A program made the translations under genes and the position numbers. The notes beneath the pieces were generated by a model that saw only the letters and a program-made list of their open reading frames with translations, had not been told where the DNA came from and made no database searches. A stretch of DNA of 64,000 nucleotides from Paramecium tetraurelia (lineage: Eukaryota > Ciliophora > Oligohymenophorea > Peniculida > Parameciidae): contig NW_001799002.1 in NCBI RefSeq assembly GCF_000165425.1, positions 5,699 to 69,698 on the forward strand. Reading direction: 5' to 3'. Shown piece by piece: positions 471 through 17,372 of the stretch (its first letter is position 1; each line of letters starts with the position of its first letter).

Positions 471-3400
471 ATGATTAAATTGGTTAATTGTGAGATTGAA
501 GATACTGTCCTGAAAGTTTTTGGTTATTTCAATCTATGTAGAGTTTTCAAACGGGAAAGACTATGAAATTATTGTTGTAATTAAATGCATTCCTCAGTTT
601 ATTATTAGAGATTGGCTGAAGTTCATTGAGCATAAATTAACAATTAACAAGTTTGAATTTGCCTAAATCTTCAATGTAAGTGTTGATAGTTTCTATAACA
701 TTAAAATATCACGACTTCAACTTCTTTTCTAGGAACTCTCTTTGACGATATACGGCATTTACACTTCAGAGACCTTCTGCCCTTTAATGGCATTAGATGT
801 GGTTCTCAAATGAGAGAGGATATATCAATTAAAAATATTATTATAAATAACCATAAAGTCAAATGTCCATATTAAAGTGATTGAAATATTCACCTTATAG
901 AGGAAATGCAATAAGCATTCAAAAAATATATGATCTTTTTTATATACCCTAGAAATTTATTTTACGGAAAGTGGATTGATGAGAGTTATGATTTGCAAAG
1001 ATTTTAATCATCAAAAGGTTGAGTTTTGATGGGTTCTTTAAAATTATGGAGCTTCGAGGTAAATAGTTTATATAAAAATAACGGAGCGTACGAAAACTTC
1101 TTCATTAGGCTATCCTGATTTTACAATAATCAAAAAAATGAGAGTAGTATGATAAAATTTGCAAGATTTATTATTAAAAAGATCAATCTTTCAGTAGTGA
1201 AACAATATCCATATATTTTAAAATTAAACTAAAATGAATTTGAATTAGTCTCATTCTGAAAAGGGGCATTTCAAAATTTTCTTATGTTCCACATTCAAAG
1301 TTATAAAAATTTAACACGCTAAAATGTTGCTAGGATTAAAATCAAAAGAATTTACATCTACTTTGTCAATATATTAAATAGAAAAAAAATTATGAAATTT
1401 CTCTATAGGTTAAGTTGGGAGCTTAATAAAAATCCTAATTTTTAATCTCAATTCACTGAAATACAGAATTATTTATCATAAGAAATATTGCATGAGCTGT
1501 TTTCTGATAGCAAAATCAAAATAAATCTAAACTTATGTAAAGACTATCAAAAGTATCTTAATTAAGTCCTTTAGTAGAGTATAAATAAGTTAAATAATTA
1601 TTTAAAGTTGGTTGAAGAATATCATTTTTTGTATATTTAATTCTTTATAAAAATAAAAAGTGAAATTTTGTATGGCTTGCTTAATTACATAAAATGAGGA
1701 AATAAAGCTTGCGTTATTGAATATAGTTTGTGAATACAAACAATTTTCAACTCAAATGATAAACAGGCAACATGAAGAAGTAAAAAAAGCTGAAACAAGT
1801 TCAATATTTCTAAATTATTTCTTTTAGTTTTAAGAAATAACAGAATAAAATGGTTAAGAAGAAATATGCCAGAAATTAAAAATTAATACATTGCTAATTA
1901 AACTCAAAAAGTAATATTAATATAATAAATAGGGTGTATTAATTTCTGAGAATTCCAATCGCCAAAATGAGCCCCTATAAAAGCAGAATACTTGCACTGA
2001 TTAAACAACCGGAAACGGCGATGATAATGATCAAATTTATGGTTAGAAATTATCAGGCATTTTTAAGGAACCTTTTTATAAGAAATAGAAAATTTCCTAA
2101 AAGCCAACCATTTTAGTTTGATCCCAACGTAAGAAAAAATGAATTTCAATAAAAGTATATAACTCAATTAAATTATATAAGGAGAGGCTTTACATTTAAT
2201 CGAATAGAATCGATTAGAGGAAGCTTTGGTTGTGATTGACGAGGCAATTAAGAAAGACTCTAGTAATCCAAGAAATTATGAATTAAAATGTAGAAATAAT
2301 AAATGATTTCCAGCAAATGTATTACTATTTATGAACCGGCTTACAGAGTCACTAGAATTTGCAGAAAAAGCAATAAAAAATGATATCTAAAATGCTAAAA
2401 ATTATGCAAGAAAAGGTTAATATTATTAATTATATTCAATTAGCTTACATATTACTATAGCTCAAAAGAGGTTTAGATGCTTTAGAGTATTTCAATATAG
2501 CTATTTAAAAAGACCCTGATGAATATGAATTCGAAGTTGGAAAAGGTATCCATCAATTTAAATTAGCAAATGCTTTATTACATTTGAATAAATTTGATGA
2601 ATGTTAAGCTAGTTATGATGTTGCCATATAAAAGAGCAACAATAAACCAGAAATATATTCAGAAAAGGGTAAATATATATTATAAAATTAAAGCTAATGC
2701 ATTAAGAATACAAAAAAAACACAAAGATGCTTTGATTTCATATGGTAAGGCTATTGAGCTGGATTCTTAATAACCTAGTTTTCATTCAGGAAAAGGTTGA
2801 ATTATATTTCAAAAATATAGCTCATACCTTACAAGAAATGAATCGGTTTGAAGAAGCCTTATTAGAATGGTAAAAAGCAATTGATTTAGAGCCTTCTAAT
2901 TCTAATTATTATTCTGGAAGAGGTAAATTAATCTTTTTATTTTAGCATACACTTTAAGATAGTTGAATCGAAATGAAGAAGCCGTAATATCTTACGATTT
3001 AGCTATTCAAAGGAATCCTTAAAACTATGAGCATCACTCAGGAAAAGGTTAAATTAATAATTTTGAAATTAAGCCTATTCGCTAAGATAATTGCAAAGAA
3101 ACATAGAAGCCATAGATTCTTTCGATTCTGCAATAAGCCTCTATGCTGATGATGCATATATCTATGCATAAAAAGGTTGAGCAATCATAAACTGAAAATT
3201 AGGCCTCGCCTTAAGAGAGATGATTCGCTATCCAGAAGCTGTCAAATGTTTCGAACAAGCTATTGAAAAAAATCCAGAAGATTATGAGTACTTTATTCAT
3301 AAAGGTTTTTCTTAAAACTTATGAATTAGCTGACACTTTAAGAGCCATGAATAAGGCCAAGGAGGCTCTGGATTCTTATAATCAAGCTATTCAAAGATTT

Positions 3401-4277
3401 CCTCAAGATGAAAGAATTTACGGAGCAAAAGGTAAACTAACCTAATACTCTTTATAGCATAGGCATTACGTCTTCAGAAAAATTATGATGAAGCTCTGAA
3501 ATACTTTGATAAAGCAATTTAAATGAATCCGGAAAATCCAAGTTTTTATGCAGGAAAAGGTTGATACTAATAAATTCCAAAATAGGTGACACTCTAAGAG
3601 ATCTGAATCGTTATCAGGATTGTTTAAAATATTTTGATCAAGCAATTCACTACCATCCTGAAAATTCATTTTATTATGGAGCCAAAGGTAGAACTTATTT
3701 AATAATTAAAGCGGATGCATTACGACACCTCGATCAATTTGATGAAGCGCTAAAATATGCCAACCTTGCTATAAATTGGAATCCAAATCTAGCTGATAAT
3801 TATGAGCTAAAAGGTAAATCACTATTTGTCAAATACTAGCAAACATTTTAAAATTCTAGCTAAAGATTGATGAGGCTTTGAAAAATTTTGACAAGGCAAT
3901 TAAAATAAATCCTGAACCTTCTAAATACTATGCAGAAAAAGGTATTACTAAATTAATTTATAATAACTTCAGCTGATACTTTAAGAGCGGTTAATCGAAA
4001 TGAAGAAGCCTTGAAATCTTGCGAAATTGCTCTTAATAAAGAACCATATAACCACAATTATATTGTAATTAAAAGTATAAATGAATTTATTTACTTAGTG
4101 ATTACTTTATTATAGATGTGTCGCTGGAAAGAATCATCAGAATTATATAAAATATTAAAATAAACATATCCAAATTAGGAATTTCTGAATCATATAAATT
4201 GTAAATATACAAAGATATTTTTAGGGAATATAATAATTTAAATGGAGTAATGTCTTAAAAGATTGGTCAATGATTGA
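471..4277 (+). CDS. Multi-intron TPR-repeat protein
   Basis: A long tetratricopeptide-repeat protein, a scaffold type that binds partner proteins; its partner is not known. The N-terminal half (about 471-2180) is coding in the ciliate code with mini-introns (for example 523-541 and 877-900) but matches no family I recognise, and one or two junctions near 676-735 and 1015-1130 stay unresolved. From about 2188 to 4074 come fifteen 34-residue TPRs with the usual pattern (A..L..L..Y.EAL..YD.AI..NP). Fourteen of them lie on exons of exactly 102 nt, separated by phase-1 introns of 21-31 nt. A last half-repeat and a Cys/Lys-rich tail end at a TGA at 4275-4277. The start at 471 is the first Met giving a continuous frame through the 19-nt intron. 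A decayed copy of the 3' end lies near 11.2 kb, so the tail belongs to the duplicated unit. The TPR part is firm, the N-terminus less so. Confidence 0.75.
2188..4098 (+). repeat. TPR exon-intron ladder, one repeat per 102-nt exon
   Basis: Exons at 2314-2415, 2444-2545, 2567-2668, 2694-2795, 2821-2922, 2946-3047, 3074-3175, 3203-3304, 3330-3431, 3458-3559, 3586-3687, 3712-3813, 3840-3941 and 3973-4074 are each 102 nt. Each starts after the first base of a codon and ends in a Lys codon plus one base. The fifteen introns between and around them are 24, 28, 21, 25, 25, 23, 26, 27, 25, 26, 26, 24, 26, 31 and 24 nt, all beginning GT and ending AG. Exon sequences are clearly related while intron sequences are not, as expected if an exon-plus-intron unit was amplified in tandem and the introns then drifted. 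Confidence 0.9.
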
Positions 4278-5113
4278 AATATATTTCAAAAGAAATATAA
4301 ATATATTTATCATTAGAAAATAACTTATACATTCATCTAACTGAATACTAAAGCTTTAAATTGTAGTAAGTATTATACTCAATATTTGGTGTGGTTGCCA
4401 CATTCAAATTATTCATTATTTAATAAAATACCAAGTTTTATCCCCTCTATCGTGTATTAATAGATGATCTTCTTTTTCTAAAGACACTTTACACACTACA
4501 AACAGCTTAAAATATTCATAACCAATTACTCTTCTACAGCTTTGTATAAAAACTATATTATCAAATTTTCACCTTTGTTCCTTTCTTTAAATGTCTTTAG
4601 TTAAATTTCGACATTCATTTTTTTAATCTCTCAGGTTTGATATAGTTATTATTCATTATCCATTATTGCTTAGTAAAGTGTTTAAATCTTCCTGCTCTCC
4701 ATATTAATTTTTTACTATCCAATCAGCCAATCAATCAGATCAAACCCAAACATCTATTTCATAGAGCTATTAGCAAATCATATTAGTCTACAAACTTAAC
4801 TTTCAATTGGCCAAAACCTAAACATAAATAACCAAGAAAAAAAAAGTTTAGTAGTGTGCCTATTCAATAGAAGTAGCTTAAAAATTTAAATTATTATTAA
4901 TTAACCAATGGTTTTATACAGTTTCAAGTGAAACTAAAACGATCAATCTAGAGTATAAGTCCATAAATATACTCATCTAAACTCTGTTATTGATTGATTA
5001 GAGATGTCAAAGGTGTGCTTCTGATAGATTTGAATTATTCTTTCAAAGTAATTAATAATAAATTAAGATATTAAGATATTAAAATTATTATATTTATATT
5101 TTTGTATATGAAA
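4278..5113. other. Intergenic, no gene seen
   Basis: AT-rich spacer between the TPR gene and the dead Rho GTPase. No ciliate-code frame worth reporting. A much altered counterpart lies around 11.52-11.87 kb in the second unit of the duplication. Confidence 0.5.
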
Positions 5114-5755
5114 TCAAAATATTAGGCACTTTTCTTTTCCATCGCTTTTTTTACTTGAGGCATTTTAAGAGTTGACACCTTTACCTAAAGCTACATTTCT
5201 AATTGCCAAGTCAAAAATCTCTTTAACACCTTCCTATGTTTATGTAGAACATTCTAGATACTAACATTGTAATTAATTTATGTTTGACTTAGCCTTATAA
5301 TTATAGAAATATATGTACTGCTTCATACTAAACATGATTTGGATTTGCTACATTTCTCATGTCTTTATTATTTCCAACAAATATTTTTGGTACTTATTTT
5401 AATTCAGGAGTTTCCACTTCTTAGTACCATTTATTGATTGCATTTTTAGAAGCTTTCTTGATCAATAACTGAGAAGATGATTAAAAAGACATCAGCCTTA
5501 CCATAACTCAATTACCTTAGTCTGTTATATGTTTCTTATCCTGCAGTATCCCATAAACTTAAATTAACTGTCTTGCCTTCAAAAGCTGTTTAAATCGTAT
5601 AATTTTCAAACACCTAAGGGACAAAATCTTGTGTTAAATGATCCTTTAAATAACTAAAGTTGAATAAACAAATACCTCAACAGAATGTCATGTTTGCCAA
5701 CACCACCATCACCTAAGGCAACTAACTTTATTGAAATTGAATTTTTTTCAGACAT
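5114..5755 (-). pseudogene. Dead Rho-family small GTPase, unit A
   Basis: On the minus strand from an ATG at 5755 a 22-nt intron joins a Rho-type GTPase: P-loop region GDGGVGK, switch II WDTAGQE, a Rho-like middle with KWYQEVETPE, and a CLIF CAAX end, the signal for prenylation and membrane attachment. Rho GTPases are GTP-driven switches for actin and membrane traffic. Several things say it is dead. The P-loop Thr/Ser after GK is His. The (N/T)KxD base-recognition motif reads NNKD. The SAK motif is changed. The frame also shifts at least twice (after ESF near 5450 and again near 5310). Sequencing error could explain one shift but not the lost active-site residues. A worse-preserved copy sits at 11.88-12.27 kb. 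Confidence 0.7.
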
Positions 5756-6034
5756 CACACAAAATTTATATTTAATAATTATATATATCCTTTGAATATG
5801 TTAAGTAATGCTGAAAGGCTGTTGTAAAATTAATATTTGAGAAGGTGTACTGAGTGAAATCCTAAATTATGGTCTGCTTTTGGTTCTATCGTAATGAATA
5901 CGATCATGTTATAATTTAAAAAAAAATCGAAGAAAATGCACAAAATTTAATACATATATAAAATAATTAATAACAATATAAAAATATACATCAAATAAAT
6001 TTCTCTCGCGTATAATGATCTCCTATATTGCTTT

Positions 6035-6214
6035 TCATACTTTGATGTACACAGAGCTTGACATTAGAATAATGATGTTAATTTCAATCAATCTATGAAA
6101 TATTAAACTCTAAAATAGTTAATGAATTGATTTTGGCAAGAGCGATGGCCATAATTTATTTATAGCTTTGAGCTCTGCCTTTAATTTGCTACTTTAGTGT
6201 TTTCCAAATAGCAT
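6035..6214 (-). CDS. Small ORF, unit A copy (uncertain)
   Basis: A 59-codon frame starting MLFGK on the minus strand, directly upstream of the Rho remnant. Its first 20 or so codons match the small ORF of unit B (12436-12681), including a shared SSKLKAELKAINK segment. After that the two frames part through small indels, so at least one copy is broken. No family recognised. It is listed because this stretch is better conserved between the two units than its surroundings. Confidence 0.3.
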
Positions 6215-7752
6215 TTGAGAATGTAATATCTGTATCATGTTTTAAGAAGTGATTTAGCTGCTGAATTTTTGAAAATGGGAAAAGTTTTAAGAAGTTACAT
6301 TTAAAAACCTCAACACATCTAATAAATATAAATTTTAATAACAATCGCAAGCTATTTTAATATTATATTTTATTGACTAATAGATTTTATGATTTTGAAA
6401 TTAAGGGTAATTATGCATTATAAACTTCATTAAAAGGCATGGTTATATTCCTTCTCAAAAATAGTTTATAGAGAAACGAACATTGATTAGCGCAGACTTT
6501 TAATATAGAAAATTCAATTTTAAGAATGTTTAGATAAAATAATAATCGTATAAGTGGATCTATTTTATTCATTACTATCGATGTCAAGCCTAATAATATT
6601 ATTTCTAAACTTATAGACCAAAACTGTAGATTTAAGAGAACTCATATTAATTACAAATTACAATTTATACTTATATATATTAACAAAAGGAAAATTCGAT
6701 ATTACAATTTCTCTAATTTATATTGTAATAAATAAAAATCATAATAAAATATTAATTCTTAATATTCCAATTGAGGCTGAAGCTTTAGAGATTCATTTTT
6801 ATTAATTATTTATAGAGTCTTTAGCGTAAAAAAAATATTAATCATATATAATCTCACAAGAATTTAATAATTCAAACTAAAATATTTTCAAACTATTTGA
6901 ATATATACATAATTCATTTTTGGAAACAACTAAATTAGACTATTGATATCCAAATTTAACTACTTGACATTAAATTGATGTATATCAACCTAAAGATGGA
7001 TTATGTTATTTGATTTTTTATGTATTTATTATTAGAAAAAGCAAAAATAGTTTTCAATCTAATATTAAATCAAGATCATCTTGCATAATAAGACTATCTT
7101 TCTTTACTAATATATTCCAATAATATTACATTATATTATTTCTGTATAAAAACAATTAAGAGTACATAAACTGATTTTTTGAATTGTAAAATAGTGGAAA
7201 ATAAAAAAATTGGTTTATTCTTTTTCTCTACCTATCTTCAAAGAGCTGATGAAAGGATTAATTATATTCCATAAAGATGTTTGACAATTTACTAGATCTG
7301 TTTTTATTCTTGCTGGAAAACATAAATGATTTAAATATATTGCCAAAGAGATGCAAAAAAAGAAATAAGTAAAATAATAACTAATGTTTCAAAATATTTG
7401 TCCCATTCAAAAAACTCCTTAGGATAGATATTAGGCCACTGAATTAATCGAATCTCTATGAAATTTGAAATAAGCAATTCTGATTTATTAAGAATTGAGA
7501 ATTTATTTTAAAATAAAGAATAAATTTATTTCCTTGAGGTAAGTGGAAGGCTTTTGTTTATTTAACTGGATTTGAAAATTTAAGTTGAAGTAATTCAAAA
7601 TAAATTCAAAGCAAACTTGATTGTTACATAAATTAAAAAAATTTATATTGCTAATCAATAATAAATTCGACCAAACACCTCAAATTTGGTTCATATTTGC
7701 TGAATTTCTTATTCATTTTCAAAATTAAAATTAACTTTAAACGATACATCAA
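6215..7752. other. Long AT-rich spacer, partly duplicated
   Basis: No gene seen. Roughly 6.96-7.38 kb is a close match to 14.18-14.62 kb, the same position upstream of the second glycosyltransferase, so the segment may contain the shared promoter region. The last 100 bp before the ATG at 7753 is less well matched. Confidence 0.5.
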
Positions 7753-9297
7753 ATGAGTTCTGCTCCTAAAATTCAAAGACTCGTATTCTCTAGTGAATTA
7801 CCAGAAAATCCTATGGCAAATAAAATGACATTAAAGAAAGACAAAACTTGTGGAGGAAGGATCAGATGGAATTTGGTTTTTAATGTAGTAATGATTGCAA
7901 TGGCAGGCTTCCCTTTTTATCTTCCCTTAGAGGCTACTTTGGGAGTTAACTGTTTCTATGCTTTATTGTGGATTTTATTTTTAGTTTTGGCTGCCAATAC
8001 ATAATCAAAAATCCACTAAACGATGAAAAAGGTGTCTAACAACTCTTAATAACCTCCAAATCCTACACCTATCAAATTCATATTGATGACATTTATATAC
8101 AAAGAACCTTTAGACTTGCTAGTAAAAACACTCCAAAATATTCAACAACAAAGAATAGCCAAAGAGATCATCATGGTTGTTTGTATGGAGGAAAAAACTC
8201 CAGAGAAGGAAACCAAAATTGATGCAGTATTTGAATAATTCAAAGACTGTTTCGATTAACTCATAGTTACTGTTCATCCTTATGGAACTCCTGGAGAGAT
8301 TCCAGGAAAATGCTCTAATACTAATTATGCTATTAGATCAGTGTTGGCTCATTTAAAATAAAGCAACCCTAACTTTGACCCAAAAAAGTACTTTGTAACT
8401 AATTTTGATGTGGATACATTATTTCACAAAAACTTTCTAGATATTTAAATGATGAACATACTGAAAGAGAAAGATAGAAACAATTTTGTTTGGTAACCAG
8501 TTTTATTTTATAATTGGGGACTTGATAAACTTAGTTTTTTCACAAGAATTACAGGATTAGCTAGAAATATGTTAATGATGGGAGCGTTAATTCCTTTAAA
8601 CATAAATATTATGAGTGTCTACACAGCTTCCTTATAATTACACATAGAGGGAGACTTTTGTCATCCAGCATATTAAATGGATGACATAATCTGCTATATT
8701 AGATGGAAGACTTTAAGCAGAAGAGCTCTTAAGATAAAACCAATTTATTGTCCTACTATTTCAGGACCTACTTCTGGTTCAAATATGTGGTAAGAATTCA
8801 TTGAATGGATCAGGCAGAATAAGAGATGGAGCATAGGGTCAGCTGAAGCTTTCCATTATTTCATAATTAAAGCTCCAAGAATAAGGTTTTGTTAAGCATT
8901 CACATGGGCCTGCAATTATCTTAACTATTATGCCTCCTTCATTTGTGTTTAAAGCTTATTATTGATTACAACCACAATAAGACTCTTTGCGATGGAAACT
9001 GATCCTAATTTATAACAATATTTTTGTATCCCTTTGGGTGTCGTTTATATCTGCCTTTTTTGCATGATGGTCATGAATAAAATCGCAGTAAAATATCTCC
9101 TAAAGGATATTGTAGTTGAAATTATACCAATATGGAAAGACTTCATTCATTGGATATTAAGTCTCATAGTAATGGTTGGGTATGGACTGATAGTGTTTTA
9201 TGGGTTCTGGGAAATTTTCTTTTGTGGTAAAGGAGTTTGTACCCATGAACCTTCAAAGAAGAAAGTACTTGATGCCAATTGTTTAGCGTAAAGATGA
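7753..9297 (+). CDS. Processive family-2 glycosyltransferase, copy A
   Basis: A 514-residue integral-membrane glycosyltransferase without introns. Two hydrophobic stretches lie near residues 38-83. The cytosolic GT2 core then shows a TNFDVDT metal-binding aspartate motif and a RQNKRW motif matching the Q..RW signature of processive enzymes (cellulose, chitin and hyaluronan synthase type). Several C-terminal membrane spans follow. Such enzymes polymerise a sugar from a nucleotide donor and export the chain; the sugar here cannot be told. Copy B (14980-16563) is nearly the same, but copy A has one extra base near 9276. Its last residues are therefore read in another frame and the protein ends 13 residues earlier. 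That tail lies past the catalytic core, so activity may survive. Confidence 0.85.
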
Positions 9298-10146
9298 AAC
9301 CGTGATAGAGATTCATCAGTAACAGAATAAAATTTGATGTAATTATGTTTATTATATGATAATATATTTTATAAATGGTGTTTTATTATATATTTATTTA
9401 AAATCTCTGATTAAGCCCTTATTTTAATTGAAGCATAAGATTTAAACTTTAATTATAAAACACATAAATATTAGATTAATGTTTAATTGGATTTAATAGT
9501 CTATTCTGAGCAAAAATTGAAGCATATTTTTCCTATATTACTAGATTTTAAGATAATATTAATAAGATAAAAGCATTAATTTAACAAAGAAATTTTATTT
9601 TGTTTCTTATTTCCAACAAAAGAAAATATAAACAAAAATTAATCAAAAGAATCGATTTGTCTAATATTTAAGTATCTCTTCATTTAATCAGAACTCAATA
9701 ATCTCAATAATCTCAATAATCTCTGTGTTATCTCGCTGGAAAAATAAAAATATCAAAATAATTCAATATTTAGAATTATATAAATGCCTAGCGTCTATTG
9801 AAAAACTCATAAATCACGTTGGAAACAAAGAAAAGTACTCTCATGATTTAAACATTTTATATCTCTTTAGAATTTTCAAGTAATTTTGTGTAAATTAATA
9901 CAGAAGAAATTCGAAACTAAATTATATACCATTGGTTTGAAGTTTCCATTCCTTTAATTATACTTTTAAAATCAATTTATGAATTTGGATACTATTTGAT
10001 ATTCGTATCATGTTATAAAAATATTAGATAATTTAAGAAATGTATATATATTATGACTAGTATTAAAAGTAATCTAGAACAAATTTGTATTACAAGTATG
10101 ACTATGAATGATTAGTAAACTATCAACGACTTATTCAGTATTTATC
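9281..10146. repeat. 866-bp block identical to 16507-17372
   Basis: The last codons of the glycosyltransferase and all of its 3' flank match the same place in unit B without a difference I could find, although this is non-coding AT-rich DNA. The block stops at the run of Ns. It contains a short tandem repeat (unit aatctcaata, three copies, 9693-9725). Either very recent gene conversion or duplication, or the same genomic sequence placed twice by the assembler. Confidence 0.85.
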
Positions 10147-10296
10147 NNNNNNNNNNNNNNNNNNNNNNNNNNNNNNNNNNNNNNNNNNNNNNNNNNNNNN
10201 NNNNNNNNNNNNNNNNNNNNNNNNNNNNNNNNNNNNNNNNNNNNNNNNNNNNNNNNNNNNNNNNNNNNNNNNNNNNNNNNNNNNNNNNNNNNNNNN
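10147..10296. other. Assembly gap of 150 N
   Basis: A run of exactly 150 N. The left edge coincides with the end of the identical block of unit A; the right edge opens inside a WD40 gene fragment. Distance and content across the gap are unknown. Confidence 1.
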
Positions 10297-10940
10297 GCCG
10301 AAATAGATAGGCAAGCCTTTGAAGCCATTTCAGTCTCTTTCTCAAAAAAAGTTTCTATAATTGCACCTCATAGTTTAGATGTATATATTTTTTATAGAAA
10401 TGTAAGAAAAGATAATAAAAAGCCAAATTGAATGCTCATTTTAATAGAATTCTATCAGTCTGTTTCTCTCCTGACGGTACTACATTAGCATCTGGTAGTT
10501 ATGATAACTCTATTGGTTTATGGGATGTTAGAACAGGATAATAAAAAGCCAAAATAAATTGTCATACTGACTAAGTTATATCATTCTATTTCTCTCGCGA
10601 TAGTAATACATTAAAATCCAGTATTGATGATCACTCGTTTCGTTTGTGGGATGTTAAAACAGCAAAAGAAATTTAACCTCAACACAATATTTTTATTAGT
10701 TAGTTTGAAATACCACTTTATAGTCCATCCATTATATAACCTGGTATTTATTTTTATTATACTGAAGCTAACATTGATCATGGAATATTCAGAAAATGTA
10801 AATACTTAACCTTGCAAGCTAAAGGAGCATTAATTTTGAAAGGAGAATTTATAAATTAGTAAGGCTTAGATTTAAGATACTTATTCAAATCTAAAGGTAG
10901 TTTGATTTTAGAAAACTAAATACAATAGGAAATTTATTGA
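10297..10940 (+). pseudogene. C-terminal fragment of a WD40-repeat protein
   Basis: From about 10428 one ciliate-code frame runs to a TGA at 10938-10940. It reads an SVCFSPDGTTLASGSYDNS blade ending LWDVRTGQQKAK, then a second weaker blade ending LWDVKTAKE, then a Gln-rich C-terminus. The frame just after the gap shows a third, decayed blade (SVSFS... with a degraded tail) in a different phase, so the gene is broken here. WD40 blades build beta-propeller scaffolds. The rest of the gene would lie in or beyond the gap. Called a fragment or pseudogene rather than an intact gene because of the phase change and the poorly kept blades. Confidence 0.65.
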
Positions 10941-11204
10941 ATTATGAACATTTTACAATATCAATTAAATGTAATTAATTCAGTATGACATCTTTTCACC
11001 TCTTACTAGGATTTTGATAAAAAAAAATGTCCCAATCTATCTTATTATAAGTGATGAATAAGAATTTAATCATGAAGGCAAGTACAATATAAATGATATT
11101 TCATATAATGTTGCTATAGTATTATAAGACTTCGCAATCATCAGTAATTTAATTCAAAAGGAATTCGCAGCAATTAGTATTATGAATCAATTCGAGGATA
11201 TAAT

Positions 11205-11520
11205 TAATTTAATTAATAATTTCAGCTGACACTCTTAAGAGCAGTTTCGAAATGAAGAAACCTTGAAATTTTAGGAAATTGTCCTTATAGAAAGATCCAC
11301 GTAACCAAAATTATATTATAATTAAAAGTATAAATGAATTTATTTTTTTAATGATTACTTTATTTTCAAATTAGCATTTATCTCCTTCTATTATTAATGT
11401 GTCGTTGGAATGAATCATCAGCATTATTGAAAATATTATAATACATGTATTCAAATTAGGAATTTCTGAATCAAATAAATAGTAAATATAAAATGGTATT
11501 TTAAGGAAATATAAGAAATT
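11205..11520 (+). pseudogene. Decayed copy of the TPR gene 3' end
   Basis: Matches 3955-4230 of the TPR gene: the last intron-bounded repeat (a GCTGACACT-type start at 11225), the intron position and the Cys/Lys-rich tail are all recognisable. Small indels and an inserted stretch destroy the frame. It marks the left end of duplication unit B. Confidence 0.75.
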
Positions 11521-11875
11521 CAAAAATTCAAAAAGTTAATTCTAATTTAAAGGCAGTAATTAGTTAAGGCTAATTAGAAAATAACAAAAATGCTCTAGAA
11601 TATTTTAACGTACAAATCTTTGATTTTCCATTTTATTAGCTTAATGTAAAATCAAAGATATATATTTATTTACACTTTTGATTTAGAAAAATGGATCACT
11701 TAAAAAATTTCAAATTATTATTCACTATTTGGTTTTTCATAGTTTGTGGAGAAAATAAAACGATATACATCAATTCAGAGTGGAATTCCATAATATTCCC
11801 ATCTGTGTTTTGTTTAGAGGAGACAATATTATACTTCCGACTTATGAGATCAAATAATTAATCATTTTTTTTTCC

Positions 11876-12270
11876 ATCGCTTTTTAATTTGTACTTGAGG
11901 TATTTCAAGAATTGAAACTTTTGCCTAAAAGCTACATTTCTAATTGCTAAGTCAAAAATCTCTTTAACACCTTTTTATGTTTATGTCGAACATTCTAGAA
12001 CTAAATTATAATAATTTATTTTAGATTTCAACCTTATTATTGTAGAATTATATGTACTTCTTCATATTAAATATGATTTGGATTTGCTAGCCTTCTCATC
12101 TCTTTATTATATCCAACAAATATTACTGGTACTAATTTTAATTCAGGAGTTTCAAAATCTTAGTACAATTTATAGATTGCATTTTAGAAGTTTTCGAGAT
12201 CGATATGATTAAAAAGACTTCAGACATACCGTTATTCAATTATCTTAGTCTGTTATATATTTTGTCACGC
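11876..12270 (-). pseudogene. Dead Rho-family GTPase, unit B
   Basis: A shorter and more eroded version of the Rho remnant at 5114-5755. The C-terminal third (EIFDLAIRNVAL-like region) and part of the middle are recognisable on the minus strand, but the switch II and P-loop portions are largely deleted. Both copies being broken suggests the ancestral gene died before or soon after the segment doubled. Confidence 0.65.
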
Positions 12271-12435
12271 AAAATTGATATTTGATAATTATATATCCTT
12301 TGGACTGAAAGGCAGTTGTAAAATTAATGTTTGAGAAGGTGTAATGAGTAAAATCTTAAATTTAATCTGATTTTGGTTATATCGTAATGATTACGATCAT
12401 ATTACATAATATTTTTTTTTAAATTGGAAAAAAAT

Positions 12436-12681
12436 TCACAAAATTTATTATATTTATATGATAATCAATAAAATTAAAAATTAATGATCTCCTTTATTGC
12501 TTTTCATACTTTGATGCACACAGAGCTTGACATTAGAATAATGATGTTAATTTAAATCAATTTATGCAATATTAAACTCTAAAATAGTTAATGAATTGAT
12601 TTTGACAAGAGATAGGCATATTTTATTTATGGCTTTGAGCTCTGCCTTTAATTTGCTACTTTTGTGTTGTTCTAAAAACAT
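12436..12681 (-). CDS. Small ORF, unit B copy, 81 residues
   Basis: Ciliate-code frame from ATG 12681 (MFLEQHKSSK...) to TGA 12436-12438. The first third shares KLKAELKAINK with the unit A copy, and the later KLCVHQSMKSN-like portion is also present at nucleotide level in unit A but out of frame. No domain recognised and no clear signal or membrane segment. The nucleotide match between units is higher here than in the flanks, which argues for some constraint, but it could equally be a relic of a larger gene. Confidence 0.35.
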
Positions 12682-12952
12682 ATATTTCTAAAATCACATT
12701 TTGGACAAACAAAATTATAATGGTATTTTAATTTCCAGTTTTCTTGTACACTCGTTATATTCCGTATAAAAATAGTATTAGCCTTACTATCAGAGGTCAA
12801 TTTAATAAAATCAGAAGAGAATGATACTGATGAATAGATAATATCAAAATATCCTTCTAATGATGATTTTTTTTATCCTTTTTTATATCTTAACTTTTAA
12901 TATTATCAGGGCTTTCCAATGCTTATCAGAACAAGCAATATAAATTGATTGA

Positions 12953-13372
12953 AGAAACCAGCAAAAGTACCTAATTTATGATTTAAAGCAATAATTTTAT
13001 ATGAAATGTAAAAAAAATTATAATTCTATAAGCATTTCTTTAGTTGAAAATGATTTTACAATTATTATGAATTATCTATTTATTGACAAAGATAATGGAT
13101 TTAGAGGACCTATCTCATTAAACAAATTGATAAAATAGCTAAAAGAAAATAGGATTTATTCATAAAAAAATACTGATTTTTATCTTTTAATCAAAATGAA
13201 AATATACTATCATAATTTCCTATATTACAAGGTAGAGTCCTAATATTTATAACGGATTGAAAAACCTTGTAACAATTTATTTCTAATATCTGATAAAATT
13301 GTAAATTCTGAAAGTTCAAGATTATAAATATCAAGTGAGATTATTAATAATTTCTTGATAGAAAATAGGTGA
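12953..13372 (+). CDS. Hypothetical ORF, possibly a TPR-related relic
   Basis: An open ciliate-code frame of 139 codons with an internal Met at 13001, which would give a 123-residue Lys/Asn/Ile-rich product. Just upstream, in the same frame but beyond a TGA, the residues ALQCLSEQAIQID-like look like part of a TPR, so this may be the end of another broken TPR gene. This stretch has no counterpart in unit A, so it is an insertion within unit B or a deletion from unit A. Function unknown. Confidence 0.35.
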
Positions 13373-14979
13373 GGAATAGTGCTATAAAAAATTACTTCAA
13401 AATCATTTCGCTGAGCCAAGATGTTAAGATTAGCCTAATTATAAATAATTAATCTATATATATAATACTAATTTGGCAATGACTTCAAATTACATTTCAT
13501 ATTTCCTAGTCCATCGAACTATTTAAGAGCTGCTTTACATACAAGGTTAACAATCTCAATATATTCTTAATTTAGAGTTTGGTAATAATAACTTGATTTA
13601 AAATTAGATTCTTTGTCAAAATAAGCCTAAGAGGTGAAAATGGCTTACCAATTGAAATAATTATAACTTAGAATAGAGACTTGATTTGGTTAATCAAAAC
13701 GAACTTTGATTAGCGAAAGCTGTGAATATTGAAAATTCAATTTTAAGAACGCACAAATAAAAAATTATTTAAATGGATCTTGCACATTAACATCATAAAT
13801 ATCAATATCGAGCCTTATTAATAGTATTTAAAAGTTTATAGGCTTAAAAAGTGGAATTACGAAAATTCATATTTTAATTACGGATCAAAATTTATACTTA
13901 TATGTATTAACAAAATAAGGTTTGATATTACAATTTCTCTAAGCAATCTTGTAATAATCAATTGAATCATAAAAAACACTAATCTTTTTAATATTCCAAT
14001 CGAGGCTCAATCCTTAGAGATTCATTTTTATTAATTATCCATAAAGTCTTTAGCATAAAAAATATTAATTCGTCATATGTAATCTCTACAAAGAAATTAA
14101 TAATTCAAATTAAAATTGTTTCACTCTATTTGAATATATATAATTCATTATTGGAAACATCTAAATCAAACTATTGATATCCAAATTTAACTACTTGACA
14201 TTAGATTGATGTATATCATCCTAAAGATGGATTTTATTATTTGATTTTTTATGTATTTATTATTAGAAAAAAGCAAAAATAGTTTTCAATCTAATATTAA
14301 ATCAAGATCATCTTGCATAATAAAACTATCTTTCTTTACTAATATATTCCAATCATATTACATTATATTATTTCTGTATAAAAACAATTAAGAGTACATA
14401 AACTGATTTTTTGAATTGTAAAATAGTGGAAAATACAATAATTGGTTTACTCTTTTTCTCTACCTATTTTCAAAGAGCTGATGAAAGGACTAATTATATT
14501 CCATAAAGATGTTTGACAATTTACTATATCTGTTTTTATTCTTGTTGGAAAACATAAATGATTTAAATATATTGCCAAAGAGATGCAAAAAAAGAAATAA
14601 GTAAAATAATAACTAATGTTTCAAAAGGTATATTTCATCAAAATTACTCCTTAACATATCTATTAGGCCCCGATAAGGGCAGAAAAATTAATCGAATCTA
14701 TATGAAAATTGAAAATAAGCAGTTGAGATTTGTTGAGAAATTTTTTTGAAATAAAGAATAAATTTAGGTAACTGGAAGGCTATTCTATATTTAACTGGAT
14801 TTAAAAAACTAATTTGAAGTAATTCAAAATAAATTCCAAGCAAACCTGAATGGTAATTAATTTAAAAAATATATAATGTTAATTAATTATGAATATGACA
14901 AAACAACCCTGTTAGCTTATATTCTCTGAATTTCTAATATCGTTTTCAAAATTAAAATTAACTTAAAACGATTTATCAA
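13373..14979. other. Spacer upstream of glycosyltransferase B
   Basis: AT-rich. From about 13.68 kb onward it follows unit A (6.45-7.74 kb) with many substitutions and indels. The best match is at 14.18-14.62 kb. No gene seen. Confidence 0.5.
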
Positions 14980-16563
14980 ATGAGTTCTGCCACTAACAAT
15001 CAAAGGCTAGTATTCTCTAGTGAATTACCAGAAAACCCTATGGCAACTAAGATGACATTAAAGCAAGACAAAACTTGTGGAGGAAGGATTAGATGGAATT
15101 TGATTATCAATGTAGTAATGATTGCAATGGCAGGCTTCCCTTTTTATCTTCCCTTAGAGGCTACTTTAGGAGTTAACTGTTTCTATGCCTTATTGTGGAT
15201 TTTATTTATATTTTTGGCTGCCAATACATAATCAAAAATCCACTAAACGATGAAAAAGGTTTCTAACAACTCTTAATAACCTCCAAATCCTACACCTATC
15301 AAATTCATATTGATGACATTTATATACAAAGAACCATTAGAATTACTATTAAAAACACTCCAAAACATTCAACAACAAAGAATAGCCAAAGAGATCATCA
15401 TGGTTGTTTGTATGGAGGAAAAAACTCCAGAGAAGGAAACCAAAATTGATGCAGTATTTGAATAATTCAAAGACTGTTTCGATTAACTCATAGTTACTGT
15501 TCATCCTTATGGAACTCCTGGAGAGATTCCAGGAAAATGCTCTAATAATAATTATGCTATTAGATCTGTATTGGCTCATTTAAGAAAAAACGACTCCAAC
15601 TTTGACCCTAACAAATACTTTGTAACTAACTTTGACGTTGATACAATATTTCACAAAAACTTTCTAGATATTTAAATGATGAACATACTGAAAGAGAAAG
15701 ATAGAAACAATTTTGTTTGGTAACCAGTTTTATTTTATAATTGGGGACTTGATAAACTTAGTTTTTTCACAAGAATTACAGGATTAGCTAGAAATATGTT
15801 AATGATGGGAGCGTTAATTCCTTTAAACATAAATATTATGAGTGTCTACACAGCTTCCTTATAATTACACATAGAGGGAGACTTTTGTCATCCAACATAT
15901 TAGATGGATGACATAATCTGCTACATTAGATGGAAAACTTTAAGCAGAAGAGCTCTTAAGATAAAACCGATATACTGCCCTACTATTTCAGGACCTACTT
16001 CTGGTTCAAATATGTGGTAAGAATTCATTGAATGGATCAGGCAGAATAAGAGATGGAGTGTAGGGTCGGCTGAAGTTTTCCACTATTTTGTGATTAAAGC
16101 TCCAAGAATAAAGCTTTGTTCAGCCTTCACATGGGCCTGCAATTATCTTAACTATTATGCCTCCTTCATTTGTGTTTAAAGCTTATTATTGATTACAACC
16201 ACAATAAGACTCTTTGCGATGGAAACTGATCCTAATTTATAACAATATTTTTGTATCCCTTTGGGTGTCGTTTATATCTGCCTTTTTTGCATGATGGTCA
16301 TGAATAAAATCGCAGTAAAATATCTCCTAAAGGATATTGTAGTTGAAATTATACCAATATGGAAAGACTTCATTCATTGGATATTAAGTCTCATAGTAAT
16401 GGTTGGGTATGGACTAATAGTGTTTTATGGGTTCTGGGAAATTTTCTTTTGTGGTAAAGGAGTTTGTACCCATGAACCTTCAAAGAAGAAAGTACTTGAT
16501 GCAATTGTTTAGCGTAAAGATGAAACCGTGATAGAGATTCATCAGTAACAGAATAAAATTTGA
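14980..16563 (+). CDS. Processive family-2 glycosyltransferase, copy B
   Basis: 527 residues, no introns, same layout as copy A: two N-terminal membrane segments, GT2 core with the DVDT motif, the RQNKRW processivity motif and several C-terminal spans. Here the C-terminal frame is continuous to a polar tail ending IEIHQQQNKI before a TGA at 16561-16563. This is probably the ancestral C-terminus that copy A lost through a 1-bp insertion. Differences from copy A cluster in the 5' half, where they include silent and conservative changes (for example within the first 80 codons and near 15580), as expected for a functional protein. The last third is almost identical. Confidence 0.88.
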
Positions 16564-17372
16564 TGTAATTATGTTTATTATATGATAATATATTTTATAA
16601 ATGGTGTTTTATTATATATTTATTTAAAATCTCTGATTAAGCCCTTATTTTAATTGAAGCATAAGATTTAAACTTTAATTATAAAACACATAAATATTAG
16701 ATTAATGTTTAATTGGATTTAATAGTCTATTCTGAGCAAAAATTGAAGCATATTTTTCCTATATTACTAGATTTTAAGATAATATTAATAAGATAAAAGC
16801 ATTAATTTAACAAAGAAATTTTATTTTGTTTCTTATTTCCAACAAAAGAAAATATAAACAAAAATTAATCAAAAGAATCGATTTGTCTAATATTTAAGTA
16901 TCTCTTCATTTAATCAGAACTCAATAATCTCAATAATCTCAATAATCTCTGTGTTATCTCGCTGGAAAAATAAAAATATCAAAATAATTCAATATTTAGA
17001 ATTATATAAATGCCTAGCGTCTATTGAAAAACTCATAAATCACGTTGGAAACAAAGAAAAGTACTCTCATGATTTAAACATTTTATATCTCTTTAGAATT
17101 TTCAAGTAATTTTGTGTAAATTAATACAGAAGAAATTCGAAACTAAATTATATACCATTGGTTTGAAGTTTCCATTCCTTTAATTATACTTTTAAAATCA
17201 ATTTATGAATTTGGATACTATTTGATATTCGTATCATGTTATAAAAATATTAGATAATTTAAGAAATGTATATATATTATGACTAGTATTAAAAGTAATC
17301 TAGAACAAATTTGTATTACAAGTATGACTATGAATGATTAGTAAACTATCAACGACTTATTCAGTATTTATC
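16507..17372. repeat. Unit B partner of the identical 866-bp block
   Basis: Matches 9281-10146 at a constant offset of 7226 bp, including the three-copy aatctcaata repeat near 16919-16951. Beyond 17372 the sequence continues into DNA not seen in unit A because of the gap there. Confidence 0.85.

Follow-up and report, generated by a model that had tools for sequence, protein, structure and literature searches.

How does a gene come to consist of a long run of exons that all have exactly the same length? The question is raised by a gene in a 64,000-nt stretch of the Paramecium tetraurelia genome (positions 5699-69698 of contig NW_001799002.1, here called the window). The gene encodes a predicted protein of tetratricopeptide repeats (TPRs), and its exons and short introns alternate so regularly that we refer to the arrangement as a ladder. 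The gene model covers the window, with TAA and TAG read as glutamine, and the genome searched for related arrays comprised 69.07 Mb in 231 contigs. The explanation that we favor, and consider highly probable, is that the gene belongs to a TPR family that has grown by copying of exon-plus-mini-intron units. The elements of the gene, as given by the gene model, are as follows.

2139..4277, + strand: ladder gene, TPR protein of 576 residues; 17 exons and 16 predicted introns; provisional ATG at 2139, TGA at 4275-4277; matches Pfam TPR families
2139..2154, + strand: exon 0 (first exon, provisional)
2155..2181, + strand: intron, 27 nt, phase 1
2182..2289, + strand: exon 1, 108 nt
2290..2313, + strand: intron, 24 nt
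2314..2415, + strand: ladder exon 2, 102 nt
2416..2443, + strand: intron, 28 nt
2444..2545, + strand: ladder exon 3, 102 nt
2546..2566, + strand: intron, 21 nt
2567..2668, + strand: ladder exon 4, 102 nt
2669..2693, + strand: intron, 25 nt
2694..2795, + strand: ladder exon 5, 102 nt
2796..2820, + strand: intron, 25 nt
2821..2922, + strand: ladder exon 6, 102 nt; arginine instead of lysine precedes the intron
2923..2945, + strand: intron, 23 nt
2946..3047, + strand: ladder exon 7, 102 nt
3048..3073, + strand: intron, 26 nt
3074..3175, + strand: ladder exon 8, 102 nt
3176..3202, + strand: intron, 27 nt
3203..3304, + strand: ladder exon 9, 102 nt
3305..3329, + strand: intron, 25 nt
3330..3431, + strand: ladder exon 10, 102 nt
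3432..3457, + strand: intron, 26 nt
3458..3559, + strand: ladder exon 11, 102 nt
3560..3585, + strand: intron, 26 nt
3586..3687, + strand: ladder exon 12, 102 nt
3688..3711, + strand: intron, 24 nt
3712..3813, + strand: ladder exon 13, 102 nt
3814..3839, + strand: intron, 26 nt
3840..3941, + strand: ladder exon 14, 102 nt
3942..3972, + strand: intron, 31 nt; contains the left edge (3951) of a segmental-duplication homology found by self-comparison
3973..4074, + strand: ladder exon 15, 102 nt
4075..4098, + strand: intron, 24 nt
4099..4277, + strand: last exon, stop codon included

Exons 2 to 15 (2314-4074) are fourteen exons of exactly 102 nt, flanked by 15 phase-1 GT-AG introns that each follow the first base of a codon and measure, in order, 24, 28, 21, 25, 25, 23, 26, 27, 25, 26, 26, 24, 26, 31, and 24 nt. 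All 16 predicted introns begin with GT, end with AG, and are 21 to 31 nt long. An earlier note on this DNA had described the 14 equal exons and the 15 phase-1 introns of 21-31 nt, and the gene model bears this out. The exon start that it had placed at 2188 has no splice site in the model, which has a sixteenth intron at 2155-2181 and the next exon at 2182-2289; the lysine before the intron, which it had called invariant, is present in 15 of 16 cases and replaced by arginine once (exon 6). In the TPR numbering that we assume, the intron splits codon 8, inside helix A, so that each ladder exon would be a circularly permuted TPR.

The regularity is specific to this exon length and this gene. A scan for runs of equal exons, based on splice dinucleotides, intron size, and an open frame, with no protein profile used, found 15 exons at 102 nt as the longest run in the window; the fifteenth starts at 4099, in the last exon, and its GT was taken as chance. 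At eight other exon lengths no run exceeded 3 on either strand of the window, and when the + strand was block-shuffled 20 times the longest runs were 2 to 3. The median exon of P. tetraurelia in the v2 annotation is 222 nt (PMC5485702; this and the other papers cited are represented by excerpts). A scan of the whole window for TPR cores revealed no second ladder: besides the gene's own 15 cores it gave two scores on the minus strand, both weak and isolated.

The same unit recurs genome-wide. A pattern consisting of a donor, 16-30 nt, AG, a 102-nt exon ending in AAAG, and GT had 396 matches in the 69-Mb genome, compared with 60 for the reversed pattern used as a control; about 100 of the 396 places are among the matches listed. 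Four stricter forms, split by donor and acceptor context, gave 42, 31, 72, and 208 matches versus 7, 2, 3, and 4 in the control. When the 208-match form was shifted to 101 nt it had 2 matches (control, 2), and at 105 nt it had 7 (control, 1). The genome scan proposed in the earlier note thus excludes the possibility that runs of 102-nt exons are an artifact of a few mis-called introns.

TPR cores were then scored with a profile derived from the window's own exons in loci L024-L050, L001-L023 being left out, and in the window's first 20 kb. Twenty regions had been chosen from protein and Pfam matches before any ladder-pattern search, and 7 more came mostly from pattern matches. Both AG and GT stood at the exact edges of a 102-nt exon in 386 of 448 cores, AG only in 39, GT only in 18, and neither in 5. 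Sliding the edge test by -6, -3, +3, +6, +9, or +30 nt left both edges in 0 to 4 of the 448. In the 20 loci chosen before the pattern search, both edges were found in 318 of 368 cores. Judging by these sequences, the window gene is one old member of a large ladder family, some members of which grew recently.

The array with the most cores, L024 (C24:249500-258500), has 39, mostly spaced 128-131 nt apart with two wider gaps. Spacing classes of PF07719 matches (15 with one mini-intron, 9 without) come from a hand-copied subset of 150 rows, selected for having neighbors, and we give them no weight. Similarly spaced TPR_12 matches, several of them about 126 nt apart, occur at C193:12797-14026 and C204:11543-12628; these may be intronless 42-residue repeats.

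Copied units of exon and intron are visible in the sister arrays. Similar segments were found in 14 of 24 arrays, at 87-99.5% identity in those listed, and in 13 of the 24 they span at least one whole intron. Their offsets range from one to many units (L024, L025, L026, L031, L040, L041, L044, L046, and others): L026 carries 395 nt at 99.5% identity and an offset of three units, L031 carries 507 nt at 96.6% and an offset of one unit, and in L024 the offsets are 5 and 15-17 units. The maximum identity is 1.0 for both exons and introns in L024, L026, L031, and L041. Of 386 exons, 249 have their closest relative within their own array, with 4.6% expected, and exon and intron similarity are correlated (r of at least 0.45) in 12 of 23 arrays. 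In recent pairs, introns and exons diverge by 0.074 versus 0.089 in L024 and by 0.193 versus 0.090 in L040.

In the mechanism that we propose, the copied unit would be a 102-nt exon with its mini-intron, together about 129 nt, and blocks of at least one whole unit would be gained or lost in the germline through in-register recombination between units. Such changes would stay in frame and spliceable because the length of every exon is a multiple of three and both of its ends are in phase 1. The intron would persist because it is copied along with its exon and because intron loss is probably rare in Paramecium; across 1,112 pairs of recent ohnologs of P. tetraurelia, more than 99% of introns are conserved (Arnaiz et al. 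2012, PLoS Genet, PMC3464196). In the window gene the units would since have diverged to about 53% DNA identity, the 34-residue TPR fold fixing the exon length while intron lengths drifted. Where internal eliminated sequences (IESs) of P. tetraurelia occur in 3-6 copies, this has been attributed to repeats, TPR or WD40 for instance, that expanded or recombined (PMC3464196), which agrees with germline copying of units. The earlier note had named unequal crossing-over as the route; unit copying stands, but the route may also have been another one, such as gene conversion or replication slippage. That the layout lets array length change freely, as also suggested there, is plausible, but the introns are unnecessary for it, because in-register exchange between repeats whose length is a multiple of three always keeps the frame.

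Several observations weigh against growth by unit copying. Ten of the 24 arrays, the window array included, have no similar segment, and the correlation between exon and intron similarity is below 0 in 5 of the 23 arrays and 0.07 in the window array. Only in 7 of 21 arrays do adjacent exons resemble each other more than they would after shuffling of their order (p < 0.05), and p is 0.87-0.97 in four; the small number of such signals suggests that copying often involved blocks or distant units rather than neighbors. In the window array, neighbors are not the most alike (permutation p = 0.73, in a test rendered uninformative by saturated similarity), a check that the earlier note had proposed; mean exon identity is 0.53, and for only 3 of 14 exons is the closest relative inside the array. 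Its introns are at background level, with a mutual identity of 0.60-0.64 by lag versus a between-array mean of 0.63, and carry no trace of copying. The edge rates given above apply to loci picked through TPR or ladder matches and so are not genome-wide rates. Intronless TPR genes exist too: at the intronless locus L050, none of 8 cores has both edges. Finally, the Paramecium-wide deficit of stopless introns whose length is a multiple of three (PMC5485702) is absent from the ladders, where 81 of 263 distinct stopless introns have such a length, approximately the neutral third. This test is weak because intron lengths are inherited within arrays, and its outcome lends no independent support to splicing.

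The growth by exon-plus-intron copying claimed in the earlier note is therefore borne out by the sister arrays, 13 of 24 of which have intron-spanning segments, and not by the window array, which has none. Unit copying is seen directly in part of the family, and we infer it for the window gene, whose units are old.

The spacers themselves resemble Paramecium mini-introns, which are mostly 20-30 nt long, GT-AG, and AT-rich, and they are probably spliced. The 356 introns between adjoining cores measure 21-32 nt, with a mean of 26.8, and are 80% AT, GT and AG having been required by construction. In P. tetraurelia, lengths of 20-30 nt account for about 98% of introns (PMC5485702). The description of the 21- to 31-nt ladder introns as the shortest class known does not hold, since this is the ordinary Paramecium class and annotated introns of Stentor are 15-16 nt long (PMC5485702, PMC9505925). 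An apparent enrichment of TGA in introns of a length divisible by three (35 of 118, with 12% expected from shuffles) was discarded: it came mostly from the copies of one array, and among distinct introns the count was 14 of 95.

The position of the intron is fixed across the family. Lysine precedes 346 of the 356 introns, the split codon is alanine or glycine in 345, and AAA precedes 325, some of the loci having been found by a pattern that required AAAGGT. With the junction column unscored, lysine occupies the junction in 362 of 379 ladder units versus 6 of 15 intronless units (Fisher p = 2e-8); the latter come from six loci, some of which are duplicates of each other. In loci not chosen by the AAAGGT pattern, lysine is found in 297 of 309 ladder units. 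We suggest that the intron is held in place by TPR positions 7-8, on which the exon-side half of the 5' splice site (AAA G|GT) falls and which would be lysine followed by glycine or alanine, whose codons start with G. In our reading, which uses the TPR numbering assumed above, these two positions and the exon-side bases of the donor may reinforce each other. AAA seemed to be preferred to AAG at the junction when all loci were counted (337 of 362 versus 740 of 847, p = 0.003), but in unselected loci the difference had p = 0.09 (274 of 297 versus 629 of 710), and the preference was not retained.

A ladder could also have formed without unit copying, if an older intronless TPR array had later acquired an intron in each of its repeats, always at an identical protosplice site (AAAG|G). 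The protosplice match in nearly every unit, with AAA before 325 of 356 introns (part of the loci being AAAGGT selected), fits such parallel gain, as do window introns that are no more alike than introns of other arrays. We nevertheless regard it as very unlikely. Introns have been copied along with exons in several sister arrays, with identities of 1.0 for both in L024, L026, L031, and L041, and the intron-spanning segments of 13 of 24 arrays tell against it as well. The intronless locus L050 in the same genome keeps its repeats contiguous, and insertion one by one would hardly yield a single position and phase over hundreds of units at many loci. That the spacers are IESs or unspliced spacers of a decaying repeat is scarcely credible, even though their sizes overlap those that we take short Paramecium IESs to have, the deficit of stopless introns divisible by three is absent, and the adjoining relic of the gene is clearly decayed. 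All 16 spacers run from GT to AG, whereas IESs are bounded by TA. Telomere-type repeats (C3A3/C4A2) at several contig ends make the assembly look macronuclear, and in the macronucleus IESs are removed. The ladder exons are also free of indels while the spacers vary in length, and in recent pairs the overall ratio of nonsynonymous to synonymous change (pN/pS) is below 1.

Selection might instead act on the mini-introns themselves, which would lower the DNA identity of neighbors or provide preferred exchange sites and in this way tune array turnover. In keeping with this idea, the left end of the duplication homology lies within a ladder intron (3951 in 3942-3972), and intronless gaps of 102-103 nt between cores occur only twice in ladder loci (L037, L039). 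A single breakpoint is an anecdote, however, and introns make up about a fifth of the unit. They diverge about like exons in several arrays (L024) and clearly faster in others (L040), and copying together with exons, combined with rare intron loss, already accounts for their retention. We consider such selection unlikely and retain growth by copying of exon-plus-intron units as the explanation of the family.

Spliced in silico, the 576-residue product matches PF07719 (3e-56), PF00515 (5e-53), and other TPR families of Pfam, with no match above the cut-off outside TPR-like repeats. Its relatives of solved structure include O-GlcNAc transferase TPR domains (PDB 7yeh, 1w3b) and engineered TPRs. 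With these and other canonical TPR solenoids it shares 34-residue repeats in long unbroken runs; it differs from them in that its database relatives are generic. The protein database search scored the 7,997 candidates sharing most words, of which 625 passed; the best 120 of these 625 have 23-36% identity, and no ciliate ortholog was recognized among them. Most likely the protein folds into a TPR solenoid that serves as a binding scaffold. The 14 ladder exons have no indels at a DNA identity of 0.53, and the 15 introns have eight lengths. For pairs that are 85-99.9% identical, which are not independent, pN/pS is 0.67 overall; among 16 arrays it is 0.35-0.77 in 12 and 0.99 in another, and it exceeds 1 in three, the last four arrays contributing 1 to 3 pairs each. 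From these comparisons, coding constraint on the ladder units looks real but weak.

The 3' end of the ladder gene forms part of a segmental duplication.

3951..10146, + strand: left copy, beginning within the ladder; five matched pieces with unmatched stretches between (self-comparison; offset of about 7.2 kb)
11202..17372, + strand: right copy (self-comparison)
11202..11523, + strand: decayed tail relic of the ladder gene, comprising the last ladder exon and the end, with indels and a changed acceptor (core scan, self-comparison)

The two copies are 92.5% identical over 6474-10146 (3.7 kb) and 72-83% identical in four shorter pieces nearer the array, which marks the left edge of the duplication, at 3951 within the intron 3942-3972. 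Adjoining the right end of the left copy is a run of 150 N (10147-10296), probably an assembly gap. A tandem repeat of 126 nt follows at 10400-10662 in about two copies; by eye, these look like WD40-type coding repeats without introns. Among the loci compared, the closest outside DNA relative is L031 on contig C155, which has the 3' end and the downstream flank in common with the window gene (69% over about 1 kb). Its ladder, cut by the contig start, has 19 cores with some near-identical units, and its own tail looks decayed. Upstream of the common tail there is no colinear match between the two ladders, which suggests turnover of the arrays in two sister genes that still have a tail in common.

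Many ladder arrays of a hand-compiled set lie near contig ends: 21 of 27 are within 40 kb of an end, compared with 5.8 expected, though not all contig ends are telomeres; without the 10 arrays less than 1 kb from an end, the count is 11 of 17 versus 3.6 expected (contigs of known length only). On C76, telomere repeats are about 270 nt from a ladder array. Contigs C155, C4, and C153 begin at or inside an array (L031, L041, and L047) without telomere repeats, so assembly breaks, probably caused by the arrays, contribute to the bias. Telomere-type repeats also occur deep within a 470-kb contig (C174:16746-16842), about 0.9 kb beyond a ladder array, possibly at an alternative chromosome end. The reversed control of the telomere-repeat search (231 matches against 96) was uninformative, as it matched the same repeat in another phase.

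Repeats on symmetrical exons are also found in animals, in collagen genes with 54-bp exons and in NLRP genes with LRR (leucine-rich repeat) exons, which have longer introns and other folds. The closest precedent of the 102-nt TPR ladder is the set of tandem 90-bp LRR exon arrays with phase-2 introns in Tetrahymena (Xiong et al. 2019, PLoS Biol, PMC6564038). Both are ciliate systems with one exact exon length divisible by three, one dominant intron phase, many genes, and a variable number of units, and growth through exchange of exon-plus-intron units has been proposed for the Tetrahymena arrays too (PMC6564038). A bias toward chromosome ends may be common to the two; in Tetrahymena it is accompanied by one toward pericentromeres. 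The ladder described here has the exact-length exon runs of the Tetrahymena type, at 102 nt, and not its 90-bp LRR phase-2 exons: it encodes TPRs, and its introns are in phase 1. The youngest array introns of T. thermophila are about 257 bp long, against a genome background of about 56 bp (PMC6564038), whereas ladder introns, at 21-32 nt, have about a tenth of that length. According to the excerpts of that paper, LRR genes of P. tetraurelia lack the 90-bp peak, no other eukaryote whose repeats are this uniform is known to its authors, and uniform exon arrays may have a single origin, in the Tetrahymena lineage (PMC6564038). The multi-copy IES expansions of Paramecium TPR and WD40 genes are alike in involving the same repeat family, with embedded non-coding DNA that expands with the repeats, but they are described, in the text available, as IES copies only, without an exon ladder, exon length, or phase (PMC3464196). 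No report of a Paramecium TPR exon ladder or of 102-bp exons was found in the open-licence literature, subscription papers being outside its scope, and the excerpts of PMC5014332, PMC12862383, and PMC13059789 do not mention one.

Ladder genes are likely to be broken by gene finders that are not tuned to mini-introns. The family offers a natural series, from identical unit pairs to arrays averaging 53% identity, in which the divergence of exons and introns after copying can be followed, and unit numbers of arrays can be compared between strains. Hundreds of 102-nt TPR exons in a second ciliate would make exon-ladder growth a recurring route to large repeat-protein families. As a tentative extension, which we hold to be possible though doubtful, the more so since the AAA preference at the junction weakens in unselected loci, exon-ladder engines arose at least twice in ciliates, a splice motif became fused with a protein motif, and the product is a fast-turnover family of binding proteins. 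If so, the exonic donor AAAG|GT would impose lysine at TPR position 7, each unit would act as a module of the protein, of splicing, and of recombination at the same time, and the arrays, many of them perhaps close to chromosome ends, would be comparable to variable recognition genes.

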